Shown here: piece by piece, positions 8,963 to 36,736 of the stretch
Position numbering within the stretch: the stretch's first letter is position 1
Layout of the letters: each line of letters begins with the position of its first letter
NCBI GenBank assembly: GCA_020073545.1
Contig: JAIQEZ010000037.1
Location: 1 to 36,736, forward strand
Length of the DNA: 36,736 nucleotides
Direction: 5' to 3'
From: Terriglobia bacterium
Lineage (GTDB): Bacteria; Acidobacteriota; Terriglobia; UBA7540
Translations under genes and position numbers: made by a program
Notes under the pieces: model-generated
Databases searched by the model: none
Told to the model about the DNA's origin: nothing
The model's input: the letters and a program-made list of their open reading frames with translations, nothing else

Positions 8963-9014
8963 GGAATCAGCCCTCTTTTCGGAGAGCGCAGCCGGCCGGT
9001 TTTGACCCCGACTC

Positions 9015-11285
9015 CTACAGCGCCCCTTCCACCGGATTCCCTTCAAACACGATCTCCCTTGTCAGATTCTCCGCGGGAAGGTTGACCTTGATGGTCCGTC
9101 GGTGAGGCGCCCGCATCTTCGACCCAGCTCGCAGGCTTACGGCTAGACGCCGGGCACGATCCTTCCAAGCGAACCTAAGCCACATTTCTCCGTCCTTCAG
9201 AAAATCAAACGTGACACCGTCGTCCTCGTAGAGCGTGAATTCGCCATCCGCGCCGGGATAGATCTTTATCATAAGTGGGCTCTCGGTCGGCTCAGCCGTA
9301 TATTGCTTGACGGGCCCGAAGGGAAGAATCGCGCCTGCCCTCACATAAAGAGGCATCGTGGCAAGATCCACGGGCCGGGAGATTTCACGAGCGCCCTCCA
9401 TCCTTTCGTTCGTCCAGAAGTCATACCAAGTCCCGCGCGGTAAGTAAAGGGTTCTGGTCTTTGCGCCTTCCTCGGTGACCGGAGCAACGAGGAGGTCCCG
9501 CCCCCACAAATACTGATCGGAGCGCACCACGGCCCGGGGATCATCATCGTAGTGGAGCCACAGGGCGCGCATGAGGGGCAGTCCCGTGTCGTGGGCTTCG
9601 CGGACCAACGTGTAGGTGTAGGGGAGAAGGCGGTAACGAAGCTCGAGGTATTTCCTGCAGATGGGTTCAATTTGCGGGTTGTGCAGTTCCTTAATACCGG
9701 GGAGGCCGCTGTTCGGACCGTATCCTTTAAGCTCGGTCGGACCGTAATCGCCTGTGTTCCACTGCCAAGGGCGTCGGAGCTTCCATGTCCGACCATGCGA
9801 CCGAAACAATGGGCAGAAGGCGCTGAATTGAAACCAGCGGGCGTAAAGCTCGCCCGTCAGTTCCGGGGTCGTAACAAAGCCGCCGGTGTCCGTTCCCCAG
9901 TAGGGCATTCCGCTGAGCCCGGTGTTGATGCCCACCGCAACTTGCGACCGCAGCGCTTCCCAGGTGGAGTCGATGTCTCCGGACCACAGCCATCCGTAAC
10001 GCTGCATTCCCGCGTAGCCGTTGCGATTCAGCGTATAAGGCCGCAGGCCTGGCCTCTCCACTTGGGGACCTTCCCAGTACATGCGATTTCGAGCGAGGCA
10101 AACCTCGGGATCAAGGGAGTCACCTTCATCAGCCCACCAGCCGTCGACACCCAGACGAAACACCTCGAGATGCTTCGACCAATAGTTCGCCGCGCTATCC
10201 GAATCCCCGGACCCGCCGGAGGCGTCAGCGGCGCGACCCTGTAAGTGTTTGGGTGGATTCACGACATGCAGCGCCAGCTTGAAGTGTTCCTTGTGCAGTT
10301 CCTCGAACATTCGCTGGGGGTCAGGAAAAACCTCCTGGTTGAAAGTGAATGACCCGTGTCCACGGTTCCAGCCCGAAGGGCAAAAACCTGTCCCTAGGTA
10401 GATCAGTACGTCGCAGGGAAGACGGTCCTCGCGGAATTTCCGGGCTTCTGACATCACCTCGTTGCGGTTCGCCAACGTTCGATGTGATTGTTGGTAACCC
10501 AGGGACCAAATGGGGGGCATGTGGGGGAACCCGGTCAGGCGGGCATATTCGGCCAGGATTTCCTGGGGCTCGTGGGAGGCGACCAGAAAGAAATCCATGG
10601 GCAGGGCCGTCCCGGACGCCCAAGGCCGGAAGCGCCCTTCGTTGGCCGTGAGATCAAAACTGCCGAAAGGAAGATGGAAGAACAGTGCCCATCCGCCTGC
10701 ACCCACCAGCCAGGGAATGGAAACTCGCGCGCCGATAGTAGCCAGGTCCGGGGTGCCTTGACCATGCTTCATGGAGTAGTCGTGCCCTCGGCGGTCAAAT
10801 TGCGGACCGCCCTCACCCAATCCGAAGACCGGGGCCCCCTGGGTAAGGAACCCGACGCTCCCGTCACTCATGTCGATCTGAAGACGCTGGAGCTCGGCTT
10901 GGTTCTGATCCCGGATGATCAACGTCAGGGGCTGGGGAAGAATCTTCAGCTCGAAGGTCCCACAGGCGAGGTTACTTTCAGCGGAGACCGACCGGATGCG
11001 GATCGGCGCCTCCCCCCCTGGCGAGGCGACCAGGACTCCGCCATCAGGGATGGGTTGCGCCTGCTCCTGGGAATTGAGGGGGAGCAGGGACACGCGAAGG
11101 GTTCGCGCGCTCACCGGAGAGATCGCGAGCTCGGCTGCTAATCCAGCCACTTTGAGGCCCGGGGTCTGAGCCGTCAATGCCGAGAAGCCCGAGCCCGTCC
11201 AGCCCGGCTTGGTCAGCAACAGCGCGCCGGCCCCGGCAGCCCCCATTCGGGCGATCGCTTTCCTTCTCGAACAGGATTTCCCCAC
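9015..11285 (-). CDS. GH31 family alpha-glycosidase (alpha-xylosidase or alpha-glucosidase type), Tat-exported, 756 aa
   Basis: GH31 enzymes are retaining alpha-glycosidases acting on alpha-xylosides, alpha-glucosides or related bonds. Domains run in the usual order: an N-terminal beta-sandwich (about 45-250, with GLGEGG), the TIM barrel with nucleophile Asp386 in GVDGWWADEGDS and acid/base Asp437 in WLWSGD, then C-terminal beta domains from about residue 620 (LYLPRGTWYDFWTNE, LYVRAGAILPFGP, LYEDDGVTFDF). The N-terminus SRRKAIARMGAAGAGALLL is a twin-arginine signal. The start is a GTG at 11285, with AGGG upstream. Only 20 bp separate it from the preceding TIM-barrel gene, so the two are almost surely co-transcribed. 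Substrate specificity cannot be read from the sequence; the neighbouring arabinofuranosidase suggests a plant-type or mixed side-chain substrate. Confidence 0.9.
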   Translation of the reverse strand: MGKSCSRRKAIARMGAAGAGALLLTKPGWTGSGFSALTAQTPGLKVAGLAAELAISPVSARTLRVSLLPLNSQEQAQPIPDGGVLVASPGGEAPIRIRSVSAESNLACGTFELKILPQPLTLIIRDQNQAELQRLQIDMSDGSVGFLTQGAPVFGLGEGGPQFDRRGHDYSMKHGQGTPDLATIGARVSIPWLVGAGGWALFFHLPFGSFDLTANEGRFRPWASGTALPMDFFLVASHEPQEILAEYARLTGFPHMPPIWSLGYQQSHRTLANRNEVMSEARKFREDRLPCDVLIYLGTGFCPSGWNRGHGSFTFNQEVFPDPQRMFEELHKEHFKLALHVVNPPKHLQGRAADASGGSGDSDSAANYWSKHLEVFRLGVDGWWADEGDSLDPEVCLARNRMYWEGPQVERPGLRPYTLNRNGYAGMQRYGWLWSGDIDSTWEALRSQVAVGINTGLSGMPYWGTDTGGFVTTPELTGELYARWFQFSAFCPLFRSHGRTWKLRRPWQWNTGDYGPTELKGYGPNSGLPGIKELHNPQIEPICRKYLELRYRLLPYTYTLVREAHDTGLPLMRALWLHYDDDPRAVVRSDQYLWGRDLLVAPVTEEGAKTRTLYLPRGTWYDFWTNERMEGAREISRPVDLATMPLYVRAGAILPFGPVKQYTAEPTESPLMIKIYPGADGEFTLYEDDGVTFDFLKDGEMWLRFAWKDRARRLAVSLRAGSKMRAPHRRTIKVNLPAENLTREIVFEGNPVEGAL

Positions 11286-11305: not shown

Positions 11306-13111
11306 TCAGGCAATGCCTGCTCGATGCTTAGCGCGCGCGATAATCTGCGCCATCACGTTCTGGTAACGCTCGAACGTGTCGTCGACCACTGTGAGGGTCG
11401 GGATGGCCAGCTCATTGAGCGATAGCGTTTCGGGATCGAACTTGCTGAATCCGGATTCGTGAACGCCGCTACTTCCGCGTCCGGGAGCGGGATGGCTGAG
11501 GTGCTGGAAGAAGCGGGCGTATTTGGTGACGGCCGCGGGGTATACAAACTCTGAAAAGGCATGATAGAGGGAAATAAAGGACATCAGCGCGTCGTAGTGC
11601 ATTTCACCGCAGCACAGCACGCCAGGGTGCTTTCGGGCGAGATCCGCAACGAGCTGTTGCGTGCCCACATGGGTGTCCGCCTTGGTGTTGTTTTCCCAGC
11701 CACCCGCGATGTCGAGGAAGTACGCGTCAGCAGGGTAGCGACTGAGAACATCGTCGATTCGAGAAACCAGCCACTCACGCCAGGAGCCGACCCCGACGTT
11801 CATGTAGGGCATCCAGCCTTCCATGTGCCGGTCGTTGTCCCAGTCCACCCAATTCAGGTAAAAGGGATCACCATCAATCTGTGCCGTCGTGGCGTCCGCA
11901 AACTTCGAGAACTCGGGGAGACGTTCGTTGGCTGAGTTGATCCCGAACATGGGCATCATGTGGAAACCCATCTGCCGGCCGGTTTCCAGGAGTGCCTTGA
12001 AGCCCGCTTCGCCGCCCAGGCGCGGCTCAGGCTGGTAGAGCGGGTAATTCCAGTAGTAGCGGCCATCCCAAGCCGCAATGAAAACCAGGACGCGCGCGGC
12101 AGGAATCTGGGAAGCGACCCAGCGCAGGATGGTTTGCATCTTGGCGTAATCGTTAAAAATATATCCCGTCCAGTGCATGCCATGAAGGGAGACAGCGAGC
12201 GCAACGTTGCGGAGCCAATCCGGAACGTCCTCACGTTTCTCCCAATCAGGAATGTTGAAGGCTCGCTCCACGTGCTTGAAATGGGGCTGAAACGCCGCCT
12301 CCTGCGAAGCCACCGCACCGGCACGCCAGACGGGGCTCTCCAGCGTGTTACTCTTCTTCCAGCCCTCCCTTTCGTAGACCAGTTCGGCCCGGTAAGAGCG
12401 TTCGCCGGGTTGGAGATAGAACCGGTTCGCCCGAACCGCCTGGTTGAGGGCGGACAAAAAGAAAAACTCGTTGTCTCCTTGTTGAATGACCAGGAGCGGC
12501 GTGTTCAGTCCTCGCGCGATGAAAAGCGCACCTCCACCAAAGGGGTAGCCAAAGAGTAATTCGTCATCTTTGGGGTCAAAGAAGCGCTGGCCGCCGGCTG
12601 AAATCTTTCCGCGCGGAACGCCCCGAACAATCGCCGCGATCGACTTGACGGGCTGTTCCATTTCGATGCGGGCATCCCATTCGATGAAAGTCCCGTTCTT
12701 GTGGAACCGAGCGCGCAGCCGGCCGGGAGCTTTTTCCTGACCCCCCGCCCAGACGAAGCCGGAGCAGGAAACCTCCAATCCGTCTGACTTGTCCTCGACG
12801 GTCATTTGCTCACGATCCAGCGCGTAGGTATTCTCAAATGTGTACACGCGAAAAGAAAACTGCAACCCCGCAAATTCCACCGAGGGCTCGGGAAAATCGA
12901 AGCTGAACTTCATGAAGCTTTCACCACGTGGAGGAACGTAAACCCCACTGCTAGAACTCAGGGGAAGAACGCGATCCGGCTTGGCGGGATTCCCGGGCGC
13001 GGAGGCGGAAGCTCCCAACGATGCGGCCATCGCCGGGACAGGAAGAATCGAGCCGGTTCCCGCAACCACGGCACTCTTCAGTAGTGTACGCCGGGAAATC
13101 TTGTCACCCAT
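11306..13111 (-). CDS. Tat-exported TIM-barrel putative glycoside hydrolase of unknown specificity (DUF6259-like?), 601 aa
   Basis: The N-terminus MGDKISRRTLLKSAVVAGTGS is a twin-arginine signal. The ATG at 13111 is fixed by AGGAGGAAC before it, so the longer open frame upstream is not used. Residues 55-280 form a beta-rich domain. Residues 300-600 look like a TIM barrel: ARVLVFIAAWDGRYYW, GFKALLETGRQMGFHMMPMFG, then PADAYFLDIAGG (Asp467) and VLCCGEMHYDA (Glu503). The Asp after one strand and Glu after the next are plausible catalytic residues of a retaining glycosidase. I do not recognise an established GH family; resemblance to DUF6259-type proteins is tentative. It sits between GH127- and GH31-type genes, 131 bp after the first and 20 bp before the second, so a carbohydrate role is likely. 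Confidence 0.65.
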   Translation of the reverse strand: MGDKISRRTLLKSAVVAGTGSILPVPAMAASLGASASAPGNPAKPDRVLPLSSSSGVYVPPRGESFMKFSFDFPEPSVEFAGLQFSFRVYTFENTYALDREQMTVEDKSDGLEVSCSGFVWAGGQEKAPGRLRARFHKNGTFIEWDARIEMEQPVKSIAAIVRGVPRGKISAGGQRFFDPKDDELLFGYPFGGGALFIARGLNTPLLVIQQGDNEFFFLSALNQAVRANRFYLQPGERSYRAELVYEREGWKKSNTLESPVWRAGAVASQEAAFQPHFKHVERAFNIPDWEKREDVPDWLRNVALAVSLHGMHWTGYIFNDYAKMQTILRWVASQIPAARVLVFIAAWDGRYYWNYPLYQPEPRLGGEAGFKALLETGRQMGFHMMPMFGINSANERLPEFSKFADATTAQIDGDPFYLNWVDWDNDRHMEGWMPYMNVGVGSWREWLVSRIDDVLSRYPADAYFLDIAGGWENNTKADTHVGTQQLVADLARKHPGVLCCGEMHYDALMSFISLYHAFSEFVYPAAVTKYARFFQHLSHPAPGRGSSGVHESGFSKFDPETLSLNELAIPTLTVVDDTFERYQNVMAQIIARAKHRAGIA

Positions 13112-13242
13112 CAGTTCCTCCTCTTGAGGGTCTGGTTGAATCGCGCGCTGGGAACCAGACCCTCGCAGGAAACACGCTTGCACCCCGCCTGGGATTATCG
13201 CTCAGTGATCCCGCGGGCAGGGCGGGGAAGTCGGCTGGGTCT

Positions 13243-15198
13243 TCAAACCGCAGCAGAAGTCGTTTTCCAGTACACCGCGTACCTTTCTCCAAACAGCTTA
13301 TAGAGCGGGATCAAGGTGAGTTTTTGCGCCTGCCCTACGGTTTGGAAGGTCAGAGCTTGGTCGGAGACCGGTTTCAGCCAACCCACCGGATCATTCGGGC
13401 TGGTGGCGATGGCGGGAACAGGAATCGGGTCACCGCTGGGGGCGGTGTCGTACCCCGAATAGAACATCGACTTGGTGAGACCCTCGGTTCCCAGTCGCCC
13501 GGCTAGCACCAGCGGTCCATACATCGCGGCCTGTAGAGTGTGGTCATCAGGCATGGTTTCGATACGGAGGCTCATGGGCAGGCTGACCTCCACTCGGTCA
13601 CCTTCTTTCCAGGTGCGGTTCAGCGTCAAGTAGCTCGAGGGGCTTGAGAACGCGCCAAGGTTCGTTCCGTTCAGCTTGACCATGCCCCCGCGGGTCGCCC
13701 AGTAGGGAATTCTGATGTTGAGGGCCAGTTCGGTGGGCTTATCCGCGTGAACGACCAAGGTGGCGCCTTCTTCCTCGGGGAAATTGGTTTGCTGTTCAAG
13801 GCGCAAGCCCTTTTCAGGCCAATTCACCTCCGAGGCGATGAACAGATTCACGAAGATGCCGTGGTCATCGTGGAAGTAAATCGAGTCGGCAGTCTTGGCA
13901 AACTCTTCGACACCCGTCCCGGTGCAGCACCAGAAGGAGTCGTAAGTAGTATTGAAGTACTTCCAGTATCCGGACGCGAGCGGGAGGAAGTAGCCCATTC
14001 CGCTGTCTTGCAGGTTCTGTGTTCCCAGCCGGCTGTTGAAGAGCGTGCGCTCGTAATAGTCCATCACGCCCGGGTCGGCTGTCCATCCGAAGATGTGGCG
14101 TGCCAGTTTGAGCATGTTATAGCCGCAGCAGCATTCCTCGGTGAGCTTGCCCAGCTCCGTCGAGAGCTTTCCGGGCGGCGTGCGCCAGAACTCGTCGTTG
14201 CTGGTGCCTCCCGTGCAATAGATCCGCTCGCCGGTGACCTCCTGCAGGAAATAGGAGGCAATGTCGTGATAGCGAGGTTCACCGGTGAGTTCGTAGCGAC
14301 GGGCGGCGCCGATGACTTGCGGGATGTGGGTATTGGCGTGGATTCCCTTCAGCTCGTCGCGATGTTCAGCCAGCGGGTCAAGGAACATCGCCTTCTCAAA
14401 TCGTCCCGCCAACGCCATGTAATGCGGCTTGCCGGTCACGGCAGAGAGGTTCCCGAGCACCTCGTTCATGCCGCCGAATTCCGTTTGCAGAATCCGCTGC
14501 ATGTGCTCGTCACTGATGCTCTCCTGCCAGTGCCAGACCCACCCCGCCATGCCCTCCGCTACCGAGAGCGCCTGGTCGTTCCCACAGTGGACGTACATGT
14601 CCAGGAGGCCGGCCATGATCTTGTGATAGGTGTAGAAGGGAGCCCAGACCCTCCGGCCCTCGCGCAGCCGGTCGAAGAGCTCTTCGGGGAAGGCGCTGAG
14701 GTAGCTGTTCTTCAGGGCCTTTTGGCAATTGGCCAATTCGCTGACCAGCGCATTGCCCTTATCCTTCAATTCACTATCCCCAGCGCTGGCATACATCAAT
14801 GCGCAGGCGGACAAGTAGTGGCCTCCGGTGAAATGACCGCGTAATTCGCAGTCGGGTTTTTCCCATCCTCCCAACGGCTCAGCCGAGGAAGGGATCCCCG
14901 CATTCACGCGAAAGGTATGGAGAAGCCGGTCAGAGGGGAGCAGGTGGAGATAGCGCCGGTTCGCTTCCAGGGCATCCTGAAACACGCCCTTTCGCAAGCG
15001 GACTTGGGTCAAGGGGAAGGGCTCGACTTTCCCTAAGATTTTCTGCTTGCTTGCTGGCTTATTTCTCATTCCGGGCGTCATCGCGGCAGTGACCTGCGCG
15101 GGACTAGCCAACAGCTGATTGGGCAGTAGGGCCGCTCCCGCTACCGCCGCTGCTGTAGAAACAAACTGCCTTCTGGTTGGTCGATTAAGATTTGTCAT
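13243..15198 (-). CDS. GH127/GH146-type (DUF1680) beta-L-arabinofuranosidase, Tat-exported, 651 aa
   Basis: This matches the DUF1680 family, whose characterised members (HypBA1, GH127; and GH146) release L-arabinose from beta-L-arabinofuranosides of hydroxyproline-rich glycoproteins or pectic side chains. It has the (alpha/alpha)6 barrel followed by beta-sandwiches. The zinc and catalytic set Glu-x-Cys...Cys-Cys is visible as Glu355, Cys357 (in TEECCCGYNMLKL) and Cys424-Cys425 (in FWCCTGTGVEEF). The start ATG at 15198 has GGGAGGAA upstream and opens a twin-arginine signal (RRQFVSTAAAVAGAALL). An unusual run of three cysteines (356-358) replaces the usual E.CN.YNM. It is the first gene of the glycosidase run and lies 208 bp after the APC permease stop, so its promoter probably lies in that gap. 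Confidence 0.9.
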   Translation of the reverse strand: MTNLNRPTRRQFVSTAAAVAGAALLPNQLLASPAQVTAAMTPGMRNKPASKQKILGKVEPFPLTQVRLRKGVFQDALEANRRYLHLLPSDRLLHTFRVNAGIPSSAEPLGGWEKPDCELRGHFTGGHYLSACALMYASAGDSELKDKGNALVSELANCQKALKNSYLSAFPEELFDRLREGRRVWAPFYTYHKIMAGLLDMYVHCGNDQALSVAEGMAGWVWHWQESISDEHMQRILQTEFGGMNEVLGNLSAVTGKPHYMALAGRFEKAMFLDPLAEHRDELKGIHANTHIPQVIGAARRYELTGEPRYHDIASYFLQEVTGERIYCTGGTSNDEFWRTPPGKLSTELGKLTEECCCGYNMLKLARHIFGWTADPGVMDYYERTLFNSRLGTQNLQDSGMGYFLPLASGYWKYFNTTYDSFWCCTGTGVEEFAKTADSIYFHDDHGIFVNLFIASEVNWPEKGLRLEQQTNFPEEEGATLVVHADKPTELALNIRIPYWATRGGMVKLNGTNLGAFSSPSSYLTLNRTWKEGDRVEVSLPMSLRIETMPDDHTLQAAMYGPLVLAGRLGTEGLTKSMFYSGYDTAPSGDPIPVPAIATSPNDPVGWLKPVSDQALTFQTVGQAQKLTLIPLYKLFGERYAVYWKTTSAAV

Positions 15199-15406
15199 GG
15201 GTTCCTCCCTCCAAAACAACAAGATGATACCGCATCGTTGCGGAACAAAGGGTAGTTAGTTGTTCGAACCGAAGGGCGATTTGAGTAAGGGAAATCCTTC
15301 ATGGCCCTCCCGCTCCGTTTCAGAAACGCAAAAGCAACATCAACGTGCTCCCTTACACCGACGCGCGCTGCGAAGCGTCCGGTCTAGGCCGCTCCGTGTC
15401 GGTCTT

Positions 15407-16903
15407 TCAGCCCGCCCACAGCCGCCGCAGCCGGTAAACCGGCAACCCGCAAGCCACGATCAACAGTCCCGGCCAGGTCGTATAGGGGCGGTAAATGAAC
15501 AGGCAAAGAACTACGACCGTCGCGCCCAGGATGTACGCGGCCGGGACCACCGGGTAGCCCGGCACTTTGTAGGGCCGGTCCGCTGCGGGCCGTGTGGCTC
15601 GCAGCCGGAAAAGACCGGCTATCGTCAGGACATAAAAAATCAGAGCCGCGGAAATAACGTAATCCAGCAAGTTGCTATAGACGTTGCCGTACTTGGCAGT
15701 AGAGGAATCAAAGGTTCTGGGCAGAACCAGGGCTGCGGCCCAAACCCCCTGCGCCAGAAGTGACCAGCCTGGAACCCTCGCCCGGTTCAGGCGCCCGGCG
15801 GGAGCGAAGAACAAGCGGTCGCGAGCCATGGCGTAGTAGGCGCGCGACCCTGCCAGCACGAGGCTGTTGATGCATCCAAACGTGGAGATCATGATGGCGA
15901 CGGCCATCAGCGTCCTGCCCAAGCCGGGAAAGATCGCCTGCAACGTCGCAGTGCCCACGCGATCGTAGGGAGCATCCTGGATCGCAGGGAGTGGCAAGGT
16001 TGCGAGGTAGGCAACGTTCGCCAGCACGTACAGCGCAATCACTGTCAATGTCCCCAGCCCCAACGCGAGAGGAAGAGTCCGGCGTGGATTCTTGACCTCG
16101 TCTGCCGCGAGGGTCACGTCGTGCCAGGAATCGGCAGCGAAGAGCGAACCTGACTGGGCGACGCAAATCGCCGCGAGGAGCCCCAGCGTCGTAGCTACGT
16201 CCAATCCCGGGACGCCTGAACGATGGAGGTGAGCAGTCCAGAGGTGTGCGAAGTTCGCCTTTACCGCGGCGGCGTTCCAGCCCAGCCCGAGCCCAACCGC
16301 GATGAGCCCCAGCAGCGCTCCAACCTTGGCCGCCGTGAAAAGATTCTGGACCCATTTCCCATACCCCAATCCTCGGCTATTGGTCCAGGTCAGCAGGGCA
16401 ATAACCAGAATTGCCACGAGCTGAGAAGTTGATAGTGAAAGTGCGTAGCTGGGAGACACGTGAAGCGGAGGAATTAGATAACGGTCTTCCGCGACTGCCG
16501 GCCAAAGCACCCCGAGAAACCTGGCAAAGGCCACTCCGACCGCGGCAATGGTTCCGGTTTGGATGACGGTGAAAAAGGTCCAGCCGTAGAGAAAGCCCCA
16601 CAGAGGTGAGAAGGCCTCGCGCAAGTACACGTACATGCCGCCGGTACGCGGCATCATCGAGGCGAGTTCGCCGTAGGAAAGCGCGGCGGCAATGGTCAAT
16701 GCACCGGCGAAAACCCACGCCAGCAGCAGACCGCCCGAGCTGCCAATCTCGCGTGCCATGGCGGCAGGCACGATGAAGATGCCAGATCCGATCATCGCGC
16801 CGGCCACGATCATCACGCAGTCAAACAGGCTGAGGCCCTGGACAAAGCCTGTCGCGGGAGGCGTTGTTGCTCCGGGCACGACCGAATGGGTTGAGACACT
16901 CAT
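15407..16903 (-). CDS. APC-family amino acid permease, 498 aa
   Basis: The product has 12 predicted membrane segments. The TM1 motif AGAMIGSGIFIVPA is the unwound substrate-binding signature (G-S-G) of the amino acid-polyamine-organocation superfamily. The SRAYYAMARDRLFF segment in the loop after TM8 is also typical. Members exchange or import amino acids with protons across the inner membrane; the substrate is not predictable here. The start ATG at 16903 gives MSVSTHSVVPG before TM1. It lies between the TonB receptor, with a strong terminator separating them, and the GH127-type gene. If it belongs to the locus functionally, the imported glycan may come with peptide or amino acids, for example from a glycoprotein. 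That link is an inference. Confidence 0.88.
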   Translation of the reverse strand: MSVSTHSVVPGATTPPATGFVQGLSLFDCVMIVAGAMIGSGIFIVPAAMAREIGSSGGLLLAWVFAGALTIAAALSYGELASMMPRTGGMYVYLREAFSPLWGFLYGWTFFTVIQTGTIAAVGVAFARFLGVLWPAVAEDRYLIPPLHVSPSYALSLSTSQLVAILVIALLTWTNSRGLGYGKWVQNLFTAAKVGALLGLIAVGLGLGWNAAAVKANFAHLWTAHLHRSGVPGLDVATTLGLLAAICVAQSGSLFAADSWHDVTLAADEVKNPRRTLPLALGLGTLTVIALYVLANVAYLATLPLPAIQDAPYDRVGTATLQAIFPGLGRTLMAVAIMISTFGCINSLVLAGSRAYYAMARDRLFFAPAGRLNRARVPGWSLLAQGVWAAALVLPRTFDSSTAKYGNVYSNLLDYVISAALIFYVLTIAGLFRLRATRPAADRPYKVPGYPVVPAAYILGATVVVLCLFIYRPYTTWPGLLIVACGLPVYRLRRLWAG

Positions 16904-17134: not shown

Positions 17135-20100
17135 TCAGAATATGATCTTCAAGCCTAACTGAATGTTTCTTGCCGGGAAGACCGCCGTGGACCTTCCGAA
17201 GGTGCCGGACGTCATGCTTCCATCGGGGTTTTGCAGGTTCACGTTGTTGAACAGGTTGAAGAACTCACCCCGGAGCTGCATGGTCGCGGCTTCATCCTTC
17301 CAGAACCACGGGATCTTGGTGTTCTTGACGATGTTGAAGTCGGTGTTGATGTATCCTGGACCGATGTAGGCGTTGCGGCCGAGGTCTCCTTCCTGACCTA
17401 GGCTCGGTGCTGGGAAATCGGACCTCTGGAAGATACCCGTCAGGAACTGCTGTTTGGTCCCACTCTTGAAGGTACCGAACGAGGGAGTTGTGGGATAGTC
17501 GTAGTTGAACCCGTCGGCATTGTAGTCGCAGCCAGTATTGCCAACTACTTGGCGAGTGGGGTCAGTATCGGGCAGGTCATATACCGGGATGAACGACTGG
17601 TCACAGAAAACGTTGTAGGCAGTGCCTTTCTGGAGGATGACCACGGCGCCCGCCTGCCATCCGCCAAGCAGCCTGCTCAGCGCCCCCGGCCCTTTCGGAC
17701 CAGGGAAATCGTACACGAAGCTGGCAGCCACTTTGTGCCGGACGTCGAAGTCGGAAAGCCCGCGGTTAAGGTTCAAGTTGGACATATCCACGATGTTCAA
17801 GCCCGTTCCGAAACTGCTGGCCGTATCGATGGCTTTGCCGACCGTGTAAGCGGCCTGGAAATCCAGACCGCGGCTGAATCGCTTTTTCACGCTGAAGTTG
17901 CCGCCCTTATAGGTTGAGATGCCATTGGACTGGCCGTAATCAATGCCTCCAAAGCTCGAATTCAGCCGATCCAACTGGACGCCGTACACAGGGGCGCCGG
18001 CGTCGTTCGTGCCGGTTTGGACCACAGGTCCCAGCATGTCGCCGTCGAAGCGGTTGACGTCATAGCCTTGGTATAGCTTGCGACCGACGGAACCGACGTA
18101 GTTGCCCTCTACCACCCAGTTGTTGGTGAAGGCGTACTGCACGCCGAGGAACCAGTTTTCAGCATACTGAGTGCGGAGGTTGGGGTCCCACGGTTGGATC
18201 CCGGCCTTCGCCCCGATGAGGCTGCCGTTCGGATTGACGCCGACCGTAATGCCCGTCATCGCCGGGTATCCGTAAGGGGGACTCGTCGACGTGCCCAGAC
18301 CATATACGACTTGTGGCCCGGAGATGAACGTATTTGCTGTGACAGTTGCGAACATGGGAAGCTGGACACAGCAATCGTGGAAGAACTGGCCGGCAGCCCG
18401 GTCGTAGAAGACTCCTATGCCCCCCCGGACTGACATCTTGCCCTTTCCTGTCGGGTCCCAGGCGATGCCGATACGAGGAGCGAGATTGTTCTTGTCAGCG
18501 GCGATGTATGGGGATGCCTGGATCATCGAAGCATTAGTAATCCGCGAGACGAAGTCGCTCCCGCTGCCGAATACGATGCGTGAAAACATGTCCTTGGGTC
18601 CGTTGTAGCCGGGTACTTGGAACACCTCATAGCGGAGCCCCAGGCTCAACGTCAGGTTGGACTTGACCTTCCAGTCATCGTTCACAAATAACCCGAAACG
18701 CTGAAAGTTAGGCGTGAAGTTGTAGGAGATTTGTTGCCCGGTCTGCGGATTGTACCCGTAGTGGCTCTCCTGGTAGGGGCTGTCAAGGGCAAAATCGAAC
18801 AGATTGAGGAAATCGTAGAAGTACCGGCTGTACTCACCTGCGAAATTCGACCCGCCGCCCCAACCCATATCATGCCCGAGGTTCCCGCCGAACTTGAACG
18901 CGTGCTTCCCGCGGTTCCAGCTCAGCACGTTCCGCCACTCGCCATTGGTCTGCATGAAGGTCGGACCGCTGAATCCCATTCCGTAATTGGTGATGCCTGG
19001 AACCGTGATTTGGGGAATTTCAGGATGCGCAACCGCTACATCCACGTCTCCCCGCACCCGGACGTACGTAAGCGACCCTTCGTAAAGCAACGAGGACGAG
19101 AAGAGGTGGGTAAAGTTCAGATTCAGGTAATTCGAATATTCCGGCTCGGGCATGGTGAACGCCGGATAGATCGAGGTTGAGAAAGTCGCTTGCCGGCTCG
19201 TCCTGTACCAGTTGCCGTATAGCCGGTTAGCGCCCGTGCCAAAGTTCTGGTCGAGCCGGATATTCCACTGGAGGCCGTTGCGGGGAATCGTCTGGCTGGA
19301 CGAGATGAACTGGGTCATTGGGAAGTTGCAGGCCAAATCCCCAATGGGCGTCGTGATCGTTTCACTCCCGGTGCAAGTGCTTCCCGACACAGACCCCGCG
19401 GTGGACGCAGTCCCCCCGAGAATCCCCACGGGCAGGAAGCTCTTCGCTATGAAGGTGCCGATGTTGTTGGGATAATTCGCCGTCAGGAGATTGATGAAAT
19501 CCGGCGTGAGCACGGTGGCTGAGGTGGTTGTTCCGGAGCCCGACCGCAGGAAATCCATCGAACCGAAGAAGAAGGTGTGGTCCTTGCGGATGGGCCCGCC
19601 CAAACTCCAGCTGCCTTCATTGCGCCGAAAGACGGGAATCTTGTCGAGCGAGCCGTCGGCGCGCACGATGTTCTGGGACTGGAAAATGTTTCCCGCCGTC
19701 AGACGATTGTTGGTGTGGAAGTAGCCCATAGTCCCGTGAACGCCGTTGGTTCCCGACTTGGTGACGACGTTGGTGACGGACGAGGAGTTGCGTCCGTACT
19801 CGGCCGAAAAGTTGTTGATCGAGACGCGCAGCTCCTGGACCGAATCGGCGTTGGGATTGACGTTGGTGACGCCACCGCGCGGGCTGCCGTTGGCGCTCGC
19901 CGAATCAATCAGGTAGCTGTTCGACTCCGGGCGCTGGCCGTTGGCCTGGATGTTTACCCCGTACTCAGCGCTGAAGATGTCGCCTGAGGCCTGCGCATAG
20001 GCCTGCCCTCCGCCCGCAGGCAAACCGACGATGCCCGCCGTTAGGACGACGAGCGAGTAGAAGTTCCGGCCTACCATGGGCAGGTTCGCCACGCGCGTTT

Positions 20101-20524
20101 CGTTAATCTGCGCCGAGACTCTTGCCTGGGAGGTCTCAACCGCAGGCGGCGCCGCCGTGACCGTCACTTCGGTCGAGGCGGTTCCCAGTTCCAGGGTGAT
20201 ATTGACCTGCTTGGTCTGCTTGCCTTCCAGCCGGATGTTTTGTTGAACCGTGGTCTTGAACCCCTTCGCGCTCGCGGTAATCTCGAACAAATGAGCGGGG
20301 AGAGAGGGAATGTTGTAGTTTCCTGCTGAGGACGTTTGCACAGTTCGTGTGATGCCCGTCTCCACGTCCTTGGCCACTACTGTCGCGTCGGGCACCAGGG
20401 CGCCCGAGGGGTCGCTGACCGTCCCCTCGAGAGCGCTTTCGAACTGTGCCCAGGCGCTCAGGGAAGAGAAGACCAGTAGAACTAACAGGGCTACGAGCCC
20501 GATAAGGCTTCTTCGCATACTCAT
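17135..20524 (-). CDS. Oar-like TonB-dependent outer-membrane receptor with carboxypeptidase-regulatory domain, 1129 aa
   Basis: Signal peptide MSMRRSLIGLVALLVLLVFSSLSAWAQ is followed by a carboxypeptidase-regulatory-like domain (about 28-110, GTVSDPSGALVPDATV). A plug region follows (about 115-270, with NLPMVGRNFYSLVVLTAG), then a long beta-barrel ending NIQLGLKIIF with the terminal Phe used for barrel assembly. This arrangement is the Oar/CarboxypepD-TonB type that acidobacteria carry in many copies, used for uptake of large substrates such as oligosaccharides or peptides. ATG 20524 is chosen because GGGAGGAA precedes it by about 9 nt; the longer frame to 20578 has no site. It has its own near-consensus promoter and terminator. 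No SusD partner is present. Position next to four glycosidase genes supports a glycan substrate, which is inferred. Confidence 0.9.
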   Translation of the reverse strand: MSMRRSLIGLVALLVLLVFSSLSAWAQFESALEGTVSDPSGALVPDATVVAKDVETGITRTVQTSSAGNYNIPSLPAHLFEITASAKGFKTTVQQNIRLEGKQTKQVNITLELGTASTEVTVTAAPPAVETSQARVSAQINETRVANLPMVGRNFYSLVVLTAGIVGLPAGGGQAYAQASGDIFSAEYGVNIQANGQRPESNSYLIDSASANGSPRGGVTNVNPNADSVQELRVSINNFSAEYGRNSSSVTNVVTKSGTNGVHGTMGYFHTNNRLTAGNIFQSQNIVRADGSLDKIPVFRRNEGSWSLGGPIRKDHTFFFGSMDFLRSGSGTTTSATVLTPDFINLLTANYPNNIGTFIAKSFLPVGILGGTASTAGSVSGSTCTGSETITTPIGDLACNFPMTQFISSSQTIPRNGLQWNIRLDQNFGTGANRLYGNWYRTSRQATFSTSIYPAFTMPEPEYSNYLNLNFTHLFSSSLLYEGSLTYVRVRGDVDVAVAHPEIPQITVPGITNYGMGFSGPTFMQTNGEWRNVLSWNRGKHAFKFGGNLGHDMGWGGGSNFAGEYSRYFYDFLNLFDFALDSPYQESHYGYNPQTGQQISYNFTPNFQRFGLFVNDDWKVKSNLTLSLGLRYEVFQVPGYNGPKDMFSRIVFGSGSDFVSRITNASMIQASPYIAADKNNLAPRIGIAWDPTGKGKMSVRGGIGVFYDRAAGQFFHDCCVQLPMFATVTANTFISGPQVVYGLGTSTSPPYGYPAMTGITVGVNPNGSLIGAKAGIQPWDPNLRTQYAENWFLGVQYAFTNNWVVEGNYVGSVGRKLYQGYDVNRFDGDMLGPVVQTGTNDAGAPVYGVQLDRLNSSFGGIDYGQSNGISTYKGGNFSVKKRFSRGLDFQAAYTVGKAIDTASSFGTGLNIVDMSNLNLNRGLSDFDVRHKVAASFVYDFPGPKGPGALSRLLGGWQAGAVVILQKGTAYNVFCDQSFIPVYDLPDTDPTRQVVGNTGCDYNADGFNYDYPTTPSFGTFKSGTKQQFLTGIFQRSDFPAPSLGQEGDLGRNAYIGPGYINTDFNIVKNTKIPWFWKDEAATMQLRGEFFNLFNNVNLQNPDGSMTSGTFGRSTAVFPARNIQLGLKIIF

Positions 20525-20570
20525 ATTATTAATTCCTCCCGAATTTGGGGCCCCGGGCGGGACCCCATGG

Positions 20571-20589
20571 ATGGGCAAAGCAAGCCCAT
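20571..20589 (-). other. Hairpin in the receptor 5' leader
   Basis: A 6-bp stem (20571-20576 with 20584-20589, 7-nt loop) lies about 47 nt upstream of the receptor ATG. It is near, but not over, the ribosome site at about 20533-20540. A role in translation control is possible but unproven. Confidence 0.35.
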
Positions 20590-20813
20590 GAGGTTGCTCC
20601 TGTGGGACCTGGGGGATTCGAATGGTGAAGATATGCCGTTACCTTATGATCGGTTCACGAGTACCACCCGAAAGGCCGACATAACCAGTCGTTTTTCCAG
20701 TCCCGACCAGTAACGACCCAAGACGTGACGCAGGCGTTCAAACTACAGTGGTTGATTTCTGAAGCTCTCGACTACCTGATTGCGCTAGTTCCCTTTGACC
20801 GCCGAACGCTTTA

Positions 20814-20823
20814 TTGTATACAA
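20814..20823. promoter_or_regulatory. Candidate GntR/FadR-type operator TTGTATACAA
   Basis: This perfect 10-bp palindrome fits the TNGT-N-ACNA pattern known for FadR-subfamily GntR operators. It lies immediately downstream of the predicted transcription start of the receptor gene, a position where bound protein would block transcription. A GntR/FCD regulator is encoded at 26704-27489; pairing of the two is inference. Confidence 0.5.
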
Positions 20824-20837
20824 AATTGAACGCCATC

Positions 20838-20866
20838 TGTATAACCGATATGTAAGCGCTTGTCAA
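20838..20866 (-). promoter_or_regulatory. Sigma70-type promoter for the TonB receptor
   Basis: On the minus strand the -35 box is TTGACA (complement of 20861-20866, six of six matches). Then comes exactly 17 bp, then TATACA (complement of 20838-20843, four of six). An A8 tract (complement of 20870-20877) just upstream may act as an UP-like element. The predicted start is near 20831, giving a leader of about 300 nt before the ATG at 20524. Confidence 0.7.
20854..20861. promoter_or_regulatory. AAGCGCTT palindrome at the -35 edge (LacI-type core?)
   Basis: AAGCGCTT is the core of many LacI/CcpA-type operators and here abuts the -35 box, a typical repressor position. The outer bases are only partly symmetrical, and no LacI-family gene is in the window, so this is tentative. 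Confidence 0.3.
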
Positions 20867-21484
20867 CTCTTTTTTTTGACCCCGGTAATATCTTTCAGCT
20901 ATGGGCGCGAAGCAGTTTAGAAGCAAGGGCTTAGGTCCCCTCTGGGGGTCCGCCGGGGATAAATAATGATAGCGATTACATTTCTTGCCAAGCTCGGGGG
21001 CCTTCCGCGATTGCAGAAAACCGGCTGCGGTCACCGCCCTGGAAACCAAGCGGTTCGGCATGCCTTGCGTGAGGATGTGCCCCGGCAAGGGTTTCAGAGC
21101 CACGCCCCCCAGGGAAGGGGATTGCGCCTCCCGAGCATTAGCGTTTCTGGTCCTGTACGAAACGTGGGGGGGGAAAGTCCCGCCACGGCAGCTACTTCCC
21201 CCTAAGTTTAAGAGGGAGATGATACCCCCCCACGTGATAGAGTGCGCTGGCACGAGGCGCAGCATAGAAGCGCCGTTTGTGAGTTGTCAAGGCATGGTGC
21301 AGTTTGATACAGTTTCGAGCGGCGCGAAGCGGCCCAGCATGCCGAACGCAACCTGTAACCACGGGTAGCAGTGTCGGCCGGTCGACGGGCGTCATCCCCT
21401 GTGGAGGGCCTATGCCGTGCAGCCGTCCGTTGCACGCGGTCGTCGGACGGGTGGCAAACGGGCCCTGGCAGCGAGGGAAGGCCC

Positions 21485-26703: not shown

Positions 26704-27489
26704 CTACCAACTGCCGCGTTCGCCGACAGTATCGATGACTCGGAAGAGCCGCTCCGCGCCGTTCAGCCAGTTCGTCTGGATGCCACGTTCTGCTCGGTCG
26801 CAGTCCCCTTGCTCGAGCGCTTGGATAATTACCGCGTGTTCGTCCGCGGTTAGACCAAGTTTCTCTACAATCACACTGGCATACAGCCGCCAATACCTCT
26901 CGGCCTGGGGTTTGACGGCCCTGAGCAGTCTGCGCAAGCGAGGTCCTGCGCTGGCATCCACCACGGTTTGATGAAAACTCAGGTCGAGGTTGAAAATGAG
27001 GTTGGGATCCTCTCGCCCTGCCAGACCCAACTCCCGGAGTCCTTCATTGAGTTCTCGCAGCTTCTGGATGACGACGGACCGTGCTGCCAGATCGAGCTGC
27101 GCGGTTTTCCGTGCCGCCAAGCCTTCCAGATGGCCGATGATCGCATAGAGCTCCCCCGCGTCTTCCTTGGTAAGGGGAGCCACGGTCAGGCGTTCCTTAG
27201 TGCGATCCCCGGAGGCTGAAATAACGAATCCCTCCCGTTGGAGCATATGAAGGGCGCCCCGCACGGGCGTGCGGCTTACCCCGAGGTGTTCCGCCAGTTC
27301 CGCTTCGACAACTCGGCTGCCCGGCGCGAGTCGTCCGTGCACGATCATGTCACGAATCTGCCGGTATGACTTCCTCAGGTTGCTAACACGTTCCGTGCGC
27401 CCCGAGCGCTGATCTCCCTGCGCCTGCCCGTTGACGGAGGTTGAAAGGGTTCCCGTCTCGGCCATCCAATTCTCAGAGTCAGTCTTCAT
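26704..27489 (-). CDS. GntR-family regulator, FadR/FCD subfamily, 261 aa
   Basis: An N-terminal winged helix-turn-helix (about 41-92: YRQIRDMIVHGRLAPGS, EAELAEHLGVSRTPVRGAL, LQREGFV) is followed by an all-helical FCD ligand domain (about 110-250). These regulators bind short palindromes as dimers and release them on binding sugar acids, organic acids or fatty acids. Of the usual metal-site residues Asp-x3-His...His...His, Asp169, His173 and His218 are present. The last position, 22 residues on, is Asn240 instead of His. It lies 63 bp after the GH127-type stop on the same strand, so it is probably the last gene of that transcript. A matching-type palindrome lies at the TonB receptor promoter. 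The ATG at 27489 has only a weak ribosome site; an in-frame ATG at residue 9 is an alternative. Confidence 0.9.
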   Translation of the reverse strand: MKTDSENWMAETGTLSTSVNGQAQGDQRSGRTERVSNLRKSYRQIRDMIVHGRLAPGSRVVEAELAEHLGVSRTPVRGALHMLQREGFVISASGDRTKERLTVAPLTKEDAGELYAIIGHLEGLAARKTAQLDLAARSVVIQKLRELNEGLRELGLAGREDPNLIFNLDLSFHQTVVDASAGPRLRRLLRAVKPQAERYWRLYASVIVEKLGLTADEHAVIIQALEQGDCDRAERGIQTNWLNGAERLFRVIDTVGERGSW

Positions 27490-27552: not shown

Positions 27553-29532
27553 TCAGTTCAGCGTGTATGGGAACGCTGTGATCCGCAGTTTGGTGGAACC
27601 GTAAGGAACAAGGGAGATCGTCTCCACCGGTTGTTTGCTTTTTACGGGGCTTATGGGCAAAGGTCCCGCGGAATCATCCACGATTTGCCATTCCGGCAGC
27701 CGTCGCGCTTTCACCTTAATCTCCAGGGGAGCGCCCTCGGCACTGAAGGGTTGATCGCCAAGAGGAGTCTCCGTGACCTCGAAGGATTTTGCCAGGTTGT
27801 CCTTGTCGATGGCCAGCGCGTAGTTCCACGGGGTAGTGGGATAGATTTCCCAATCGGATGCCGGTCCCGTCTGCTTGATCTTGTGCCAGCTCTCCCCCAT
27901 CTTGAGCGAGAACACCAAAGGCCCGCGTTCCACGGCAATCGAGTTGTTGTACCAATTGGAATTGACGACCCGCATGGGGAAGCGCAGTTCGACTCCGTCA
28001 CCGCTCTTCCATTCGCGCTCCACGCGGAAAAACTCGCCGGCTCTCACGCCCTCGAGCGTCGTGCCATTGACTGCCACTGCGGCGCCGGCCGCCCACGCAG
28101 GAATTCTCAGGACGAGAGGGAACTTGACGGGCTGGCCAGGATTCACGGAAAGGGTTACGGTTTCCCGGAAGGGGTAGTCCGTCTTTTCCTGGATGGTGAC
28201 GGGCGTTCCTTCCGCGACCAAGGTGGACACTTCGCTGGGGCCATACACGACCGCCGCGAGGCCGTGATCTGGGGTGCCCATCCACAGGTTGGCCACGAAC
28301 TTGGGCCATCCTTGATGCATGTTGGCAGTGCAGCAGCCGAAATTGGGTTCCAGGCCATAAAGGTTCGAGTCGGGACCGTTGGTCGTCCAGCGGTGGTTCG
28401 CAAAGCTGCACAGGACTTGGTTCGCCTGCTGATCGTACTGGTGGGCCCACATGTCGGCGGTCAGAGTTCCGGGCAGGGCGTTATAGGCGATCCTTTCCAG
28501 GCGATCTCCCAAAGCGGAATCTCCGAAAATGGAAATGTCCGTCTCCAGGGAGAACATGGCTTCCACGACCGCGCAGAGCTCCGTTCCTTGCGAGGGGTCG
28601 CGCCCGGCGTAGTGCTCGTCCGCTCCAAACAACCCGAAGGGTTGCCCGTGAAATTGGTCGAGATCCTTCAACATCTGGTACAGACTTTCCCGATCCTTCT
28701 GCGCTCCGGTAATCAGCCACCACACGGGGGCAGCCTTCATGGCCATGGCATTGTTCACGCCGTGGGTGGAGAGGTTGGCTTGCGAATTGTCAATCTTCCC
28801 TTGGAAGCGGAAGTCAGCGAACTGCGCCTCCCAATCGTGCCCTTGAGCGTGCATTCGGCGAGCTAGCTCCAGCAGGCTCTTGTCCCCGGTGCGGTTATAG
28901 AGCCATAGAATGCTCAGCACCTCGTCGTGCCACCGAAAGATCGCCCACTCCTTGAGCGGCCTCGCATCCAGTTGTTGGGCCTGGTAAGCAAAGTACTTTT
29001 GCATAAGGGGAATCACGCGCGGATCGCCTGTGGCCTCCTGATACTGCATGAGCACCTTCAACATGACGTAGTTCGGCCACCAGTCCGTGTTCCGGGTGGG
29101 GCCGATCCAGCCATTGGGTTGCGGGTGTTCGAGTGTCCAGTCCACCCACTTCTTCGCCTTGGCGATGAGCCTCTCGTCACCGGTCAAATACGCCAGGGGC
29201 ACGAGCCCATCCAGGAAATAGGGCCCTCGCTCCCAGCTCTCTCCCGTGCCGCCCAGCCAGCCGCTGTTTGGGCCGACGTCGGGCCAGAATTCGTCGAGGT
29301 GACCGCTCAGGCCATTGGCCTGGATGCGCAACTGTCGCAGCAACCAACCCGTGGGCTTGACTGAGGTAAGCGGCAGCAGGTTGAAGGCGTTCGGTTGGAG
29401 CGGGGCCCGGTTCGGCGTCGCACCGGAGGGTTGTGCAGCAAGGCCCTGTGGGGCGCTCATGCTTAAAGCCAACCACACCAGGAAGGCCAGCTTGAGAGAC
29501 GTTCGCTTCACAATTGCCAGGGTATGCATCAT
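27553..29532 (-). CDS. Second DUF1680/GH127-type glycoside hydrolase, Sec-exported, 659 aa
   Basis: A signal peptide (TSLKLAFLVWLALSMSAPQGLAA, to about residue 33) is followed by an (alpha/alpha)6 barrel and C-terminal beta-sandwich domains. The Glu-x-Cys...Cys-Cys zinc and catalytic set of beta-L-arabinofuranosidases is intact as Glu318, Cys320 (GTELCAVVE) and Cys400-Cys401 (FGCCTANMHQGWPKF). The rest differs clearly from the GH127-type protein at 13243-15198 (no CCCGYNML or WCCTGTG), so it is from a different subgroup and probably has a different substrate. The ATG pair at 29532/29529 has a weak AAAGGA site. It lies 214 bp after the MFS transporter stop and 63 bp before the GntR gene, making an enzyme-transporter-regulator group. 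Confidence 0.85.
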   Translation of the reverse strand: MMHTLAIVKRTSLKLAFLVWLALSMSAPQGLAAQPSGATPNRAPLQPNAFNLLPLTSVKPTGWLLRQLRIQANGLSGHLDEFWPDVGPNSGWLGGTGESWERGPYFLDGLVPLAYLTGDERLIAKAKKWVDWTLEHPQPNGWIGPTRNTDWWPNYVMLKVLMQYQEATGDPRVIPLMQKYFAYQAQQLDARPLKEWAIFRWHDEVLSILWLYNRTGDKSLLELARRMHAQGHDWEAQFADFRFQGKIDNSQANLSTHGVNNAMAMKAAPVWWLITGAQKDRESLYQMLKDLDQFHGQPFGLFGADEHYAGRDPSQGTELCAVVEAMFSLETDISIFGDSALGDRLERIAYNALPGTLTADMWAHQYDQQANQVLCSFANHRWTTNGPDSNLYGLEPNFGCCTANMHQGWPKFVANLWMGTPDHGLAAVVYGPSEVSTLVAEGTPVTIQEKTDYPFRETVTLSVNPGQPVKFPLVLRIPAWAAGAAVAVNGTTLEGVRAGEFFRVEREWKSGDGVELRFPMRVVNSNWYNNSIAVERGPLVFSLKMGESWHKIKQTGPASDWEIYPTTPWNYALAIDKDNLAKSFEVTETPLGDQPFSAEGAPLEIKVKARRLPEWQIVDDSAGPLPISPVKSKQPVETISLVPYGSTKLRITAFPYTLN

Positions 29533-29746: not shown

Positions 29747-31090
29747 TTAGTGCAAAACTTCTCCTTCGGTTTCCTTCAGAAACAACGTGAAGATTACGGC
29801 GCCCACCAGGAAGGTCGATATGAATGACACCGTTAAGGAAAAGCTGGTATTCCTGGCCAGCAAGAACCCTATCACCAGCGGGGCCAGGGAGTTCGATATC
29901 CGTTGCACGGTTAATCCCACACTGTAACCCACACCCCGAACGTCGGTGGGATACAGTTCCCCCATCCACGTATCCCAAACTCCCCACGCGCCCTGATTGA
30001 AGAAATAAAGTCCAAAGCTCCAGAGGTACATCTGCCCCAAGGTCATGGATTGTGCGAACGCAAACCCGAAGATGGCCGCGAGGCTGATGAAAATGACCAT
30101 GATCTTCTTGCGGCCGTAGCGGGCCGTCAGCCACGACGCGGTCATGTAGCCGGGGAACATGACCAACGCCGTGAGCGCAATGAACTCGTCTCCCTGGGGA
30201 GTGGACAGGCCTTTCTTGCTCAAGAGGATGGGCATCCAGGAGGCCAACGCCCAGTAGCCCCAGCAAAAGCAGAAGTTGACCACCGACTGAAACACCGTCA
30301 CCGAGAGAAGCTTGCGATGAAACAACTCACGGAAGGAGCCCCGCTTGTATTGGTCCACCGTAAGTTCAATTCGGTCCAGGTCAAACGTCAACCGGCCTTG
30401 CGACAGCCGCCGCAGCGACTGCTTCGCGAGTTCCTGTTCCCCTTCACCCACTGCCCAGTAGGGGGATTCGGGAGCCGCCGCCCAAACTACGAATGCCCAA
30501 AGGCCAGCCAACGAACTTACCGCCAGGATCCAGTGCCAGCTTGTGGCCCGAAGAGCGTGCGTCACGCCAATAGCAATCAGCATCCCGATCGGCCAGCCGG
30601 AGGCCAGGTAAACCGTCGCGCGGCCGCGGCTCTTAACGGGGAGCAACTCCTCAAAATAGACGAAGGAAGAAACCAGGACTCCTGACAGTGCCACCCCGGA
30701 GACAAAGCGCGTCCACCACAGCATTCCATAGCTGAACGAAATTGAACTTACAAGGGACAGCACGCCGTAGGAAGCCAGGCTCGCCATCATCGATTTCTTG
30801 CGACCCACGTAGTCTGTGATCTTGCCCCATAATAAGCAGCCAGGTATCATCCCCAGAAAGATGGAACCAATCAGTGAGCCGAGTTTGGTAGGCGCGAGTT
30901 TGAAGTCCGCGGCAATCACGTCGCTGGCCATGATGATGATCATCATTTCCCAGGCTTCAATGACAAAGGAGAAGAAGATGGCGATGCCCGCTTTCCAGTG
31001 TTCCCGGGTCAGCGGCATCTCGGCAAATATCTCGCCAACCCCAACCTGCCTGGTTCCTGCGGAGGTCTGAAACGAAGTCATAGCGGACAT
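29747..31090 (-). CDS. MFS metabolite:H+ symporter (SV2/NiaP-like), about 447 aa
   Basis: The product has twelve membrane helices with the MFS motif A in loop 2-3 (GKITDYVGRKKSM) and its copy in loop 8-9 (ARYGRKKIM). The N-terminal FVIEAWEMMIIIM and the loop-4 region resemble metabolite/H+ symporters of the SV2/NiaP type, which import organic acids, sugars or aromatic acids. The start is uncertain: ATG 31090 or 31081 gives a normal short cytoplasmic N-terminus, while an in-frame GTG at 31165 would add 25 residues with no better ribosome site. Upstream lies a palindrome-rich gap; downstream is the GH127-type gene. It probably carries a product of that enzyme or a substrate of the HyuAB/glycyl-radical genes upstream. 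Confidence 0.85.
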   Translation of the reverse strand: MSAMTSFQTSAGTRQVGVGEIFAEMPLTREHWKAGIAIFFSFVIEAWEMMIIIMASDVIAADFKLAPTKLGSLIGSIFLGMIPGCLLWGKITDYVGRKKSMMASLASYGVLSLVSSISFSYGMLWWTRFVSGVALSGVLVSSFVYFEELLPVKSRGRATVYLASGWPIGMLIAIGVTHALRATSWHWILAVSSLAGLWAFVVWAAAPESPYWAVGEGEQELAKQSLRRLSQGRLTFDLDRIELTVDQYKRGSFRELFHRKLLSVTVFQSVVNFCFCWGYWALASWMPILLSKKGLSTPQGDEFIALTALVMFPGYMTASWLTARYGRKKIMVIFISLAAIFGFAFAQSMTLGQMYLWSFGLYFFNQGAWGVWDTWMGELYPTDVRGVGYSVGLTVQRISNSLAPLVIGFLLARNTSFSLTVSFISTFLVGAVIFTLFLKETEGEVLH

Positions 31091-31203
31091 GCTCGAATGG
31101 ATAAATCGGTTGGGAAGCCACCTCGAGAGAGGTTTCGCCGCAGACCGACGAGCGTTTAGGTTCACCGTAAGGGCGACGTTTCAAGCGGGGATGAGGCCCC
31201 GCC

Positions 31204-33278: not shown

Positions 33279-33279
33279 T

Positions 33280-36599: not shown

Positions 36600-36736
36600 G
36601 TACTCGGCATAGAGCCGTTCAATAATGTTGTTTCCCGGTTGGGTGGTGTGCGCGGAATGTCCACGAATTCCTCCGACTACGGCTGATAGACAGCGCTATT
36701 GCTCATATAGATGAAAGGGCAAGGAGCGGGCCGGTG

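Follow-up and report, generated by a model that had tools for sequence, protein, structure and literature searches.

Analysis of the window, i.e. the whole stretch of 36,736 nucleotides under study, indicates that a HypR-like GntR/FCD repressor very probably controls a receptor-GH127 operon through a palindrome at positions 20813-20824 in response to hydroxyproline. From the site, its match to the motif, its conservation with the regulator and the gene content, all of which were computed here, we infer binding, repression, the ligand and the operon structure. The connection between this operator and the GntR regulator, proposed in the initial annotation, is supported by comparative genomics (the motif was obtained from regions upstream of the regulator's orthologues, and site and regulator co-occur), with binding itself predicted, and its setting is wider than the single window showed.

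Receptor promoter and candidate operator

The TTGACA-17-TATACA promoter with an A8 tract described upstream of the receptor gene is present on the minus strand (20866-20838), with the -35 box TTGACA at 20861-20866, the -10 box TATACA at 20838-20843 after a spacer of 17 nt and the A8 tract 5' of the -35 box at 20870-20877. The transcription start is predicted at about 20831, as deduced from the -10 box that ends 7 nt before it. The candidate GntR operator ATTGTATACAAA, a strandless element at 20813-20824, encloses the core palindrome TTGTATACAA (20814-20823). This palindrome had been placed at the predicted start; it does lie near the start, but just after it, at about +8 to +19. Its proposed fit to the FadR-subfamily pattern TNGT-N-ACNA was likewise correct in part: the site is a palindrome with TKGT/ACMA boxes, but its GT-AC spacing is 2 nt and not a single N. 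With the receptor ATG at 20524 and the start at about 20831, the leader would be about 307 nt long; no Rfam family reached the gathering score in the leader (20525-20830) or in the whole window. In the receptors of relatives, a TTGACA box is likewise seen about 200-340 nt before the gene. An additional TTGACA block at 21285-21290 (minus strand), far 5' of the receptor gene, resembles the sequence at position -515 before L017, the closest orthologue, in which the nearer promoter is, by eye, lost; the block is maybe an alternative promoter.

Genes of the window

Pfam searches identified on the minus strand an Oar-like TonB-dependent receptor (CarboxypepD_reg and OMP_b-brl_4; 17135-20524), an amino acid permease of the APC family as the second gene of the proposed receptor operon (15407-16903), a protein of the GH127 beta-L-arabinofuranosidase family (13243-15222), a GH31 family enzyme (9015-11285) and a six-hairpin-type glycosidase (6611-9046). 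On the same strand, a 625-aa protein encoded at 11306-13183 gave no match in Pfam or NCBIfam, and is kept in the loci of relatives. Since all these genes lie on one strand, separated by gaps of 231, 184, 59 and 20 nt and by one overlap, the receptor, permease, GH127, 625-aa protein, GH31 and glycosidase genes likely form one operon, and the unit controlled is probably the whole receptor-permease-GH127-GH31 operon. Relatives of the APC-family permease adjoin GntR orthologues in 23 of 80 loci. Oar-like receptors have 32 matches in the genome; Acidobacteriota have many such TonB-dependent receptors, most of them without an assigned substrate.

The GntR/FCD regulator, the putative binder of the operator, is encoded at 26704-27489 on the minus strand and was recognised by Pfam and by its conserved neighbourhood. 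Directly 5' of gntR lies the gene of a second GH127 family protein (27553-29532), and Pfam further assigned, also on the minus strand, an MFS transporter (29747-31165) and hydantoinase/oxoprolinase B and A subunits (31512-35352), for which NCBIfam caprolactamase models score far under the cut-off. The hydantoinase/oxoprolinase genes stand between the MFS gene and a trans-4-hydroxy-L-proline dehydratase gene, of which the C-terminal part (35757-36736, minus strand; best family NCBIfam NF043068, and tblastn) is present, broken by the contig end. In the ORF at 19-1824 (plus strand), a PilT-type stretch (type II/IV secretion ATPase-like) runs into a GH3 glycosidase, which may be an unusual fusion or reflect faulty assembly where the contig ends.

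Regulator and its orthologues

The gntR product contains PF00392 (57.1 bits, cut-off 27) and PF07729 (59.2 bits, cut-off 24.3), i.e. the winged helix-turn-helix and FCD domains of the FadR/FCD subfamily of the GntR family. In an alignment inspected by eye, the FCD metal ligands Asp-x3-His and the later Glu-His are retained in the clade of the window protein, and the third metal-ligand His of Sinorhizobium meliloti HypR is seemingly Asn. A search of solved structures with the GntR profile returned 24 matches, the best of them 7xp0 (E 8.2e-21), with NanR and PdhR among the weaker ones.

A close copy of the regulator occurs in six of 41 genomes, the window's own (G000) counted; the other five copies (G009, G010, G011, G012 and G014) are 56-67% identical to the window protein. 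These copies adjoin shared gene sets comprising, in varying combinations, the receptor, TPR proteins, GH127, GH31 and the 625-aa protein. Within the class, 43 of 399 genomes have an orthologue at E <=1e-40, and a collection search for orthologues gave 80 loci from Acidobacteriota, Gemmatimonadota and one labelled Verrucomicrobia. FCD genes on plasmids of Deinococcus, Meiothermus, Agrobacterium and Pantoea have unlike neighbourhoods and were kept as outgroups rather than counterparts.

Operator motif

Expectation maximisation (EM) from random seeds was applied to 76 of the 80 upstream regions, with the window excluded and four regions dropped as too short or near-copies; the training loci include genomes G009-G012 and G014, with their GntR upstream regions only. 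The resulting motif, ATTGTATACAAT, had a log-likelihood of 215 versus 37.0-60.7 in six Markov controls, and at width 24 the procedure converged on its doubled form. It is a palindrome with TKGT/ACMA boxes, as described for FadR/FCD operators in PMC4494728. Furthermore, judged by 1514 other stretches taken from these loci, three k-mers were enriched in the 400 nt before GntR genes: TTGTATACAA in 9 loci versus 0.32 expected, ATTGTATACA in 10 versus 0.42 and ATTGTAGACA in 7 versus 0. The best site before GntR in six loci (L089, L104, L105, L112, L118 and L123) is ATTGTATACAAA, identical to the window site. The k-mers, the de novo EM motif and the best sites all give the sequence found at the receptor, and not the different conserved sequence that, according to the initial annotation, would speak against the link to GntR.

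A score of at least 7 was reached by a site in 55 of the 80 GntR upstream regions, leaving 25 without such a site. In 25 loci a second palindrome stands at a distance of exactly 12 bp; any other distance occurs in at most three loci. Tandem palindromes would suit two dimers side by side. As many as 73 of 120 sites in the 80 loci fall outside ORF bodies, although ORF bodies make up 89% of the bases. Before 13 paralogous FCD genes the best sites scored between -1.2 and 11.0, with moderate ones in L055 (11.0) and L057 (10.7). With the matrix learned from the GntR orthologues, the window site obtains 19.8, where 21.2 is the maximum, and ranks first in 36.7 kb; the second-best match, 11.4, lies within gntR itself. 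Among 400 Markov-simulated windows the median maximum was 11.2 and the highest 17.4, and none reached 19.8. The window site lacks the partner palindrome 12 bp away.

Sites at receptors of relatives

Among the 80 loci, 25 receptors were found by an N-terminal match, and 15 of these have a site of at least 11 within 500 nt, versus 6.9% of 1600 random stretches. The comparison of receptors across genomes covered 29 of the 30 loci L016-L045 (L022 has no N-terminus) and two paralogues. Receptors of relatives that have the GntR mostly have the site, and those without the GntR do not: among five genomes in which the GntR and an orthologous receptor occur together, four show tandem-site sums of 10.3-24.2 at the receptor (G000 21.5, G009 12.0, G011 10.3, G014 24.2), versus a maximum of 8.4, followed by 2.7, in the 23 genomes without the GntR. 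Since the G000 site has no 12-bp partner, its sum of 21.5 stems from a single strong palindrome. The closest receptor orthologue, in G010, has a tandem sum of -4.1 and a degraded single site (6.9) at the corresponding place; in this genome the GntR is retained and is preceded by a tandem site. No tandem site was found at the best receptor of G012 or at the two paralogues.

Hydroxyproline genes behind the sites

The initial annotation had seen no second copy of the palindrome, which holds within the window; the genome-wide scan it advised for carbohydrate genes revealed one further perfect site, but this precedes a dehydratase activase gene. The own genome thus has two exact copies of TTGTATACAA, one in the receptor promoter and one, intergenic, at C189:2513, the latter being the only tandem site (up to 2 mismatches) in the 5.28-Mb genome; the receptor, suggested as a special target, is not the only predicted one. 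Most one-mismatch sites elsewhere in the genome lie inside ORFs and were hence not counted as targets. The gene behind the C189 site encodes a glycyl-radical activase with trans-4-hydroxy-L-proline dehydratase activase as its best equivalog (384.4, cut-off 425). By tblastn, the dehydratase is split: residues 1-498 are on C189 (1-2438), ending at the contig edge, and residues 502-785 are at the edge of the window. From these two halves it follows that the window gntR is probably located 3' of the C189 operator, after the hydantoinase-type, MFS and GH127 genes. Between the genes from the C189 site to gntR, intervals of 404, 346 and 214 nt leave room for other promoters, and no site stands directly before gntR in the own genome; autoregulation there is therefore uncertain.

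In G010, the dehydratase is intact (1316.9, cut-off 1100) and is encoded two genes after the GntR. In the own genome too, an Acidobacteriota genome, a glycyl-radical trans-4-hydroxyproline dehydratase gene was observed, divided over two contigs.

Among 63 proteins encoded behind sites (those of 62 of 100 genes in relatives and one of the own genome, leaving out the GntR genes and some others, including several long receptor-like ORFs, partly for size), Pro_racemase is the commonest family (18 of 63), followed by receptor barrels (9), the prolyl-oligopeptidase type (8), GH127 (3) and Ldh_2 (2). Three Pro_racemase proteins examined had 4-hydroxyproline epimerase as their best NCBIfam model, at 404.7-428.7, under the cut-offs of 442 and 450. 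Predicted operators are accordingly found before hydroxyproline catabolic genes, as in a HypR-like regulon. The neighbours of the GntR orthologue on a Granulicella tundricola plasmid encode a carboxypeptidase-regulatory-domain (receptor-like) protein, aminopeptidase P, prolyl isomerase, a protein of the dihydrodipicolinate-synthase family and FAD/2Fe-2S oxidoreductases; a gene of the proline racemase family stands beside the stretch.

Proposed regulation and alternatives

We propose that the GntR/FCD protein would bind ATTGTATACAAT-type palindromes as a dimer and, bound just past the receptor start, would block transcription of the receptor-permease-GH127-(625-aa protein)-GH31-glycosidase operon. 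The same protein may also act on the tandem operator that precedes the genes of the dehydratase activase and of the dehydratase, upstream of gntR. The repressor would be released by hydroxyproline itself or by a closely related product of plant glycoproteins rich in this amino acid, and uptake, deglycosylation and hydroxyproline breakdown would be switched on together. The presence of GH127 together with hydroxyproline genes suggests a hydroxyproline-rich plant glycoprotein as the substrate. The broader proposal is evenly balanced: in soil Acidobacteriota, and in Gemmatimonadota through a related GntR, a sugar-type locus for uptake and glycosidases might be under the control of an amino acid, hydroxyproline. 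In this regulon, hydroxyproline-rich plant glycoproteins such as extensins and arabinogalactan proteins would be taken up, stripped of beta-L-arabinofuranose and degraded by the glycyl-radical dehydratase, with one repressor acting on tandem palindromes 12 bp apart. If true, soil bacteria would couple the uptake of glycans to the breakdown of hydroxyproline. Moreover, once tested, an operator whose regulator has a ligand that can be guessed could yield a predicted substrate for one Oar-like receptor.

The overlapping palindromes of the initial annotation were also recognised, AAGCGCTT (20854-20861, strandless) being the one that overlaps the -35 box and spacer. It has the AAnCGnTT form of a LacI-family operator, so that a second regulator may act at the receptor promoter, and its position over the -35 box suggests a second regulatory input. 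In addition, a genome pattern search found TGTAATCGCTATCA at 20967-20980 (minus strand), an exact match to the cre-like pattern TGWAANCGNTNWCA. That a LacI-family repressor at AAGCGCTT, perhaps also at 20967-20980, exerts the main control and leaves TTGTATACAA secondary or inert seems unlikely. Consistent with such control, AAnCGnTT cores occur in the receptor promoter region of L016, L018, L019, L020 and L021 (five of the six shown), and these palindromes precede 6 of 25 receptors of GntR loci versus 54 of 1600 random stretches. Six LacI genes exceed the cut-off in the genome, one of which carries AAGCGCTT about 50 nt before its own start (G000:C84; L067 1438-1449). However, LacI control leaves the palindrome's tracking of the GntR gene unexplained, and no LacI gene was found among the 20 window ORFs scanned with Pfam. 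Nor is TTGNNAAGCGCTT commoner in the genome than its reversed control; the cre-like pattern has 4 matches in 5.28 Mb, equal to its reversed control (4), and was rejected as a mark of a genome-wide LacI regulon. A pattern joining AAGCGCTT to TTG was likewise dropped, with 3 genome matches and 3 in the control.

It is similarly doubtful that the GntR protein, while binding here, responds to an arabinose-type sugar or to an acid other than hydroxyproline. Glycosidases abound in the window, and the FCD domain binds varied carboxylic acids according to PMC4494728; nevertheless, the recurrent partners of the regulator are the hydroxyproline epimerase family, the dehydratase with its activase, prolyl peptidases and the amino acid permease. 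This regulon content makes hydroxyproline the more likely predicted signal, rather than a sugar.

Some members of the FadR subfamily activate transcription. Activation of the receptor by GntR is nonetheless improbable here, even if such activators are also discussed in PMC6608401, as the window site lies 3' of the predicted start, and in relatives TTGAC occurs within -60 to +10 of 11 of 63 sites and in 8 of these 11 begins 20-31 nt ahead of the centre of the site, which would place the site over the -10 box. Both placements, just after the start in the window or over the -10 box in relatives, suit repression.

A chance palindrome is extremely improbable: TTGTATACAA with up to one mismatch matches once in the window, and such a 10-bp palindrome occurs at least once in 14 of 100 shuffled windows (mean 0.15), but the matrix was learned elsewhere and the site combines an exact promoter position with conservation alongside the regulator.

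Comparison with known systems

The literature searched contained no paper linking such a receptor operator, a GntR regulator and hydroxyproline; for TTGTATACAA as an exact string, the matches listed were, by title, mostly on cloning vectors and primers, and were set aside. A region of pSymB of S. meliloti holds genes for GntR/FCD, Ldh_2, a binding protein, DAO, aconitase X and proline racemase, and from this gene content, the record being unannotated, we take it to be the hyp cluster. On 50 kb of pSymB, the three top matches of our matrix (15.3, 13.0 and 11.4; 1.1 matches of at least 11 expected) lie in front of the gene of the binding protein, next to that of the GntR and ahead of that of Ldh_2. 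In PMC5343134, S. meliloti HypR is described as a repressor of the GntR family for which 4-hydroxyproline is the inducer; the predicted members of Proteobacterial HypR regulons comprise, in some taxa, a TonB-dependent receptor and a permease (PMC5343134). S. meliloti HypR shares with the window protein the GntR/FCD type and the tie to hydroxyproline genes, and is listed in PMC4494728 with a GT-AC spacing of 2 nt, like the window site. However, the S. meliloti GntR is 26% identical to the window protein (tblastn) and falls outside the Acidobacteriota-Gemmatimonadota clade (support 100/99) on a long branch of unsettled placement. As identity is low and the tree does not group the two, orthology was not supported and we call the window protein HypR-like. 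In contrast to the S. meliloti system, the window locus adds GH127 and GH31 enzymes and the glycyl-radical dehydratase.

The HypR of Streptomyces coelicolor, a FadR-subfamily repressor of hydroxyproline use (PMC6608401), shares its subfamily with the window regulator, but its motif as given there, CTNTGC(A/C)ATGTCAC, differs from the palindrome, and the window site ATTGTATACAAA does not match it. According to PMC4494728, many FadR-subfamily regulators have TKGT/ACMA boxes, so another FCD protein could bind here. The same survey (Suvorova 2015, PMC4494728) describes extra, weaker half-sites 7-12 nt from the centre of GntR-family sites, whereas here, in 25 loci, a complete second palindrome accompanies the first at exactly 12 bp. 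Finally, the HypBA1/GH127 system of Bifidobacterium longum is described as acting on hydroxyproline-linked arabinosides, and GH127 enzymes as acting on the beta-L-arabinofuranose of hydroxyproline-rich glycoproteins (PMC10850190, PMC7263609). The likeness to the window lies in the GH127 family enzyme, whose specificity here is putative, and in hydroxyproline-rich glycoprotein substrates; in B. longum, as presented in these papers, the sugar is the food and enters through an ABC importer, whereas the window locus is linked to genes for hydroxyproline breakdown and would rely on a TonB-dependent receptor for uptake.
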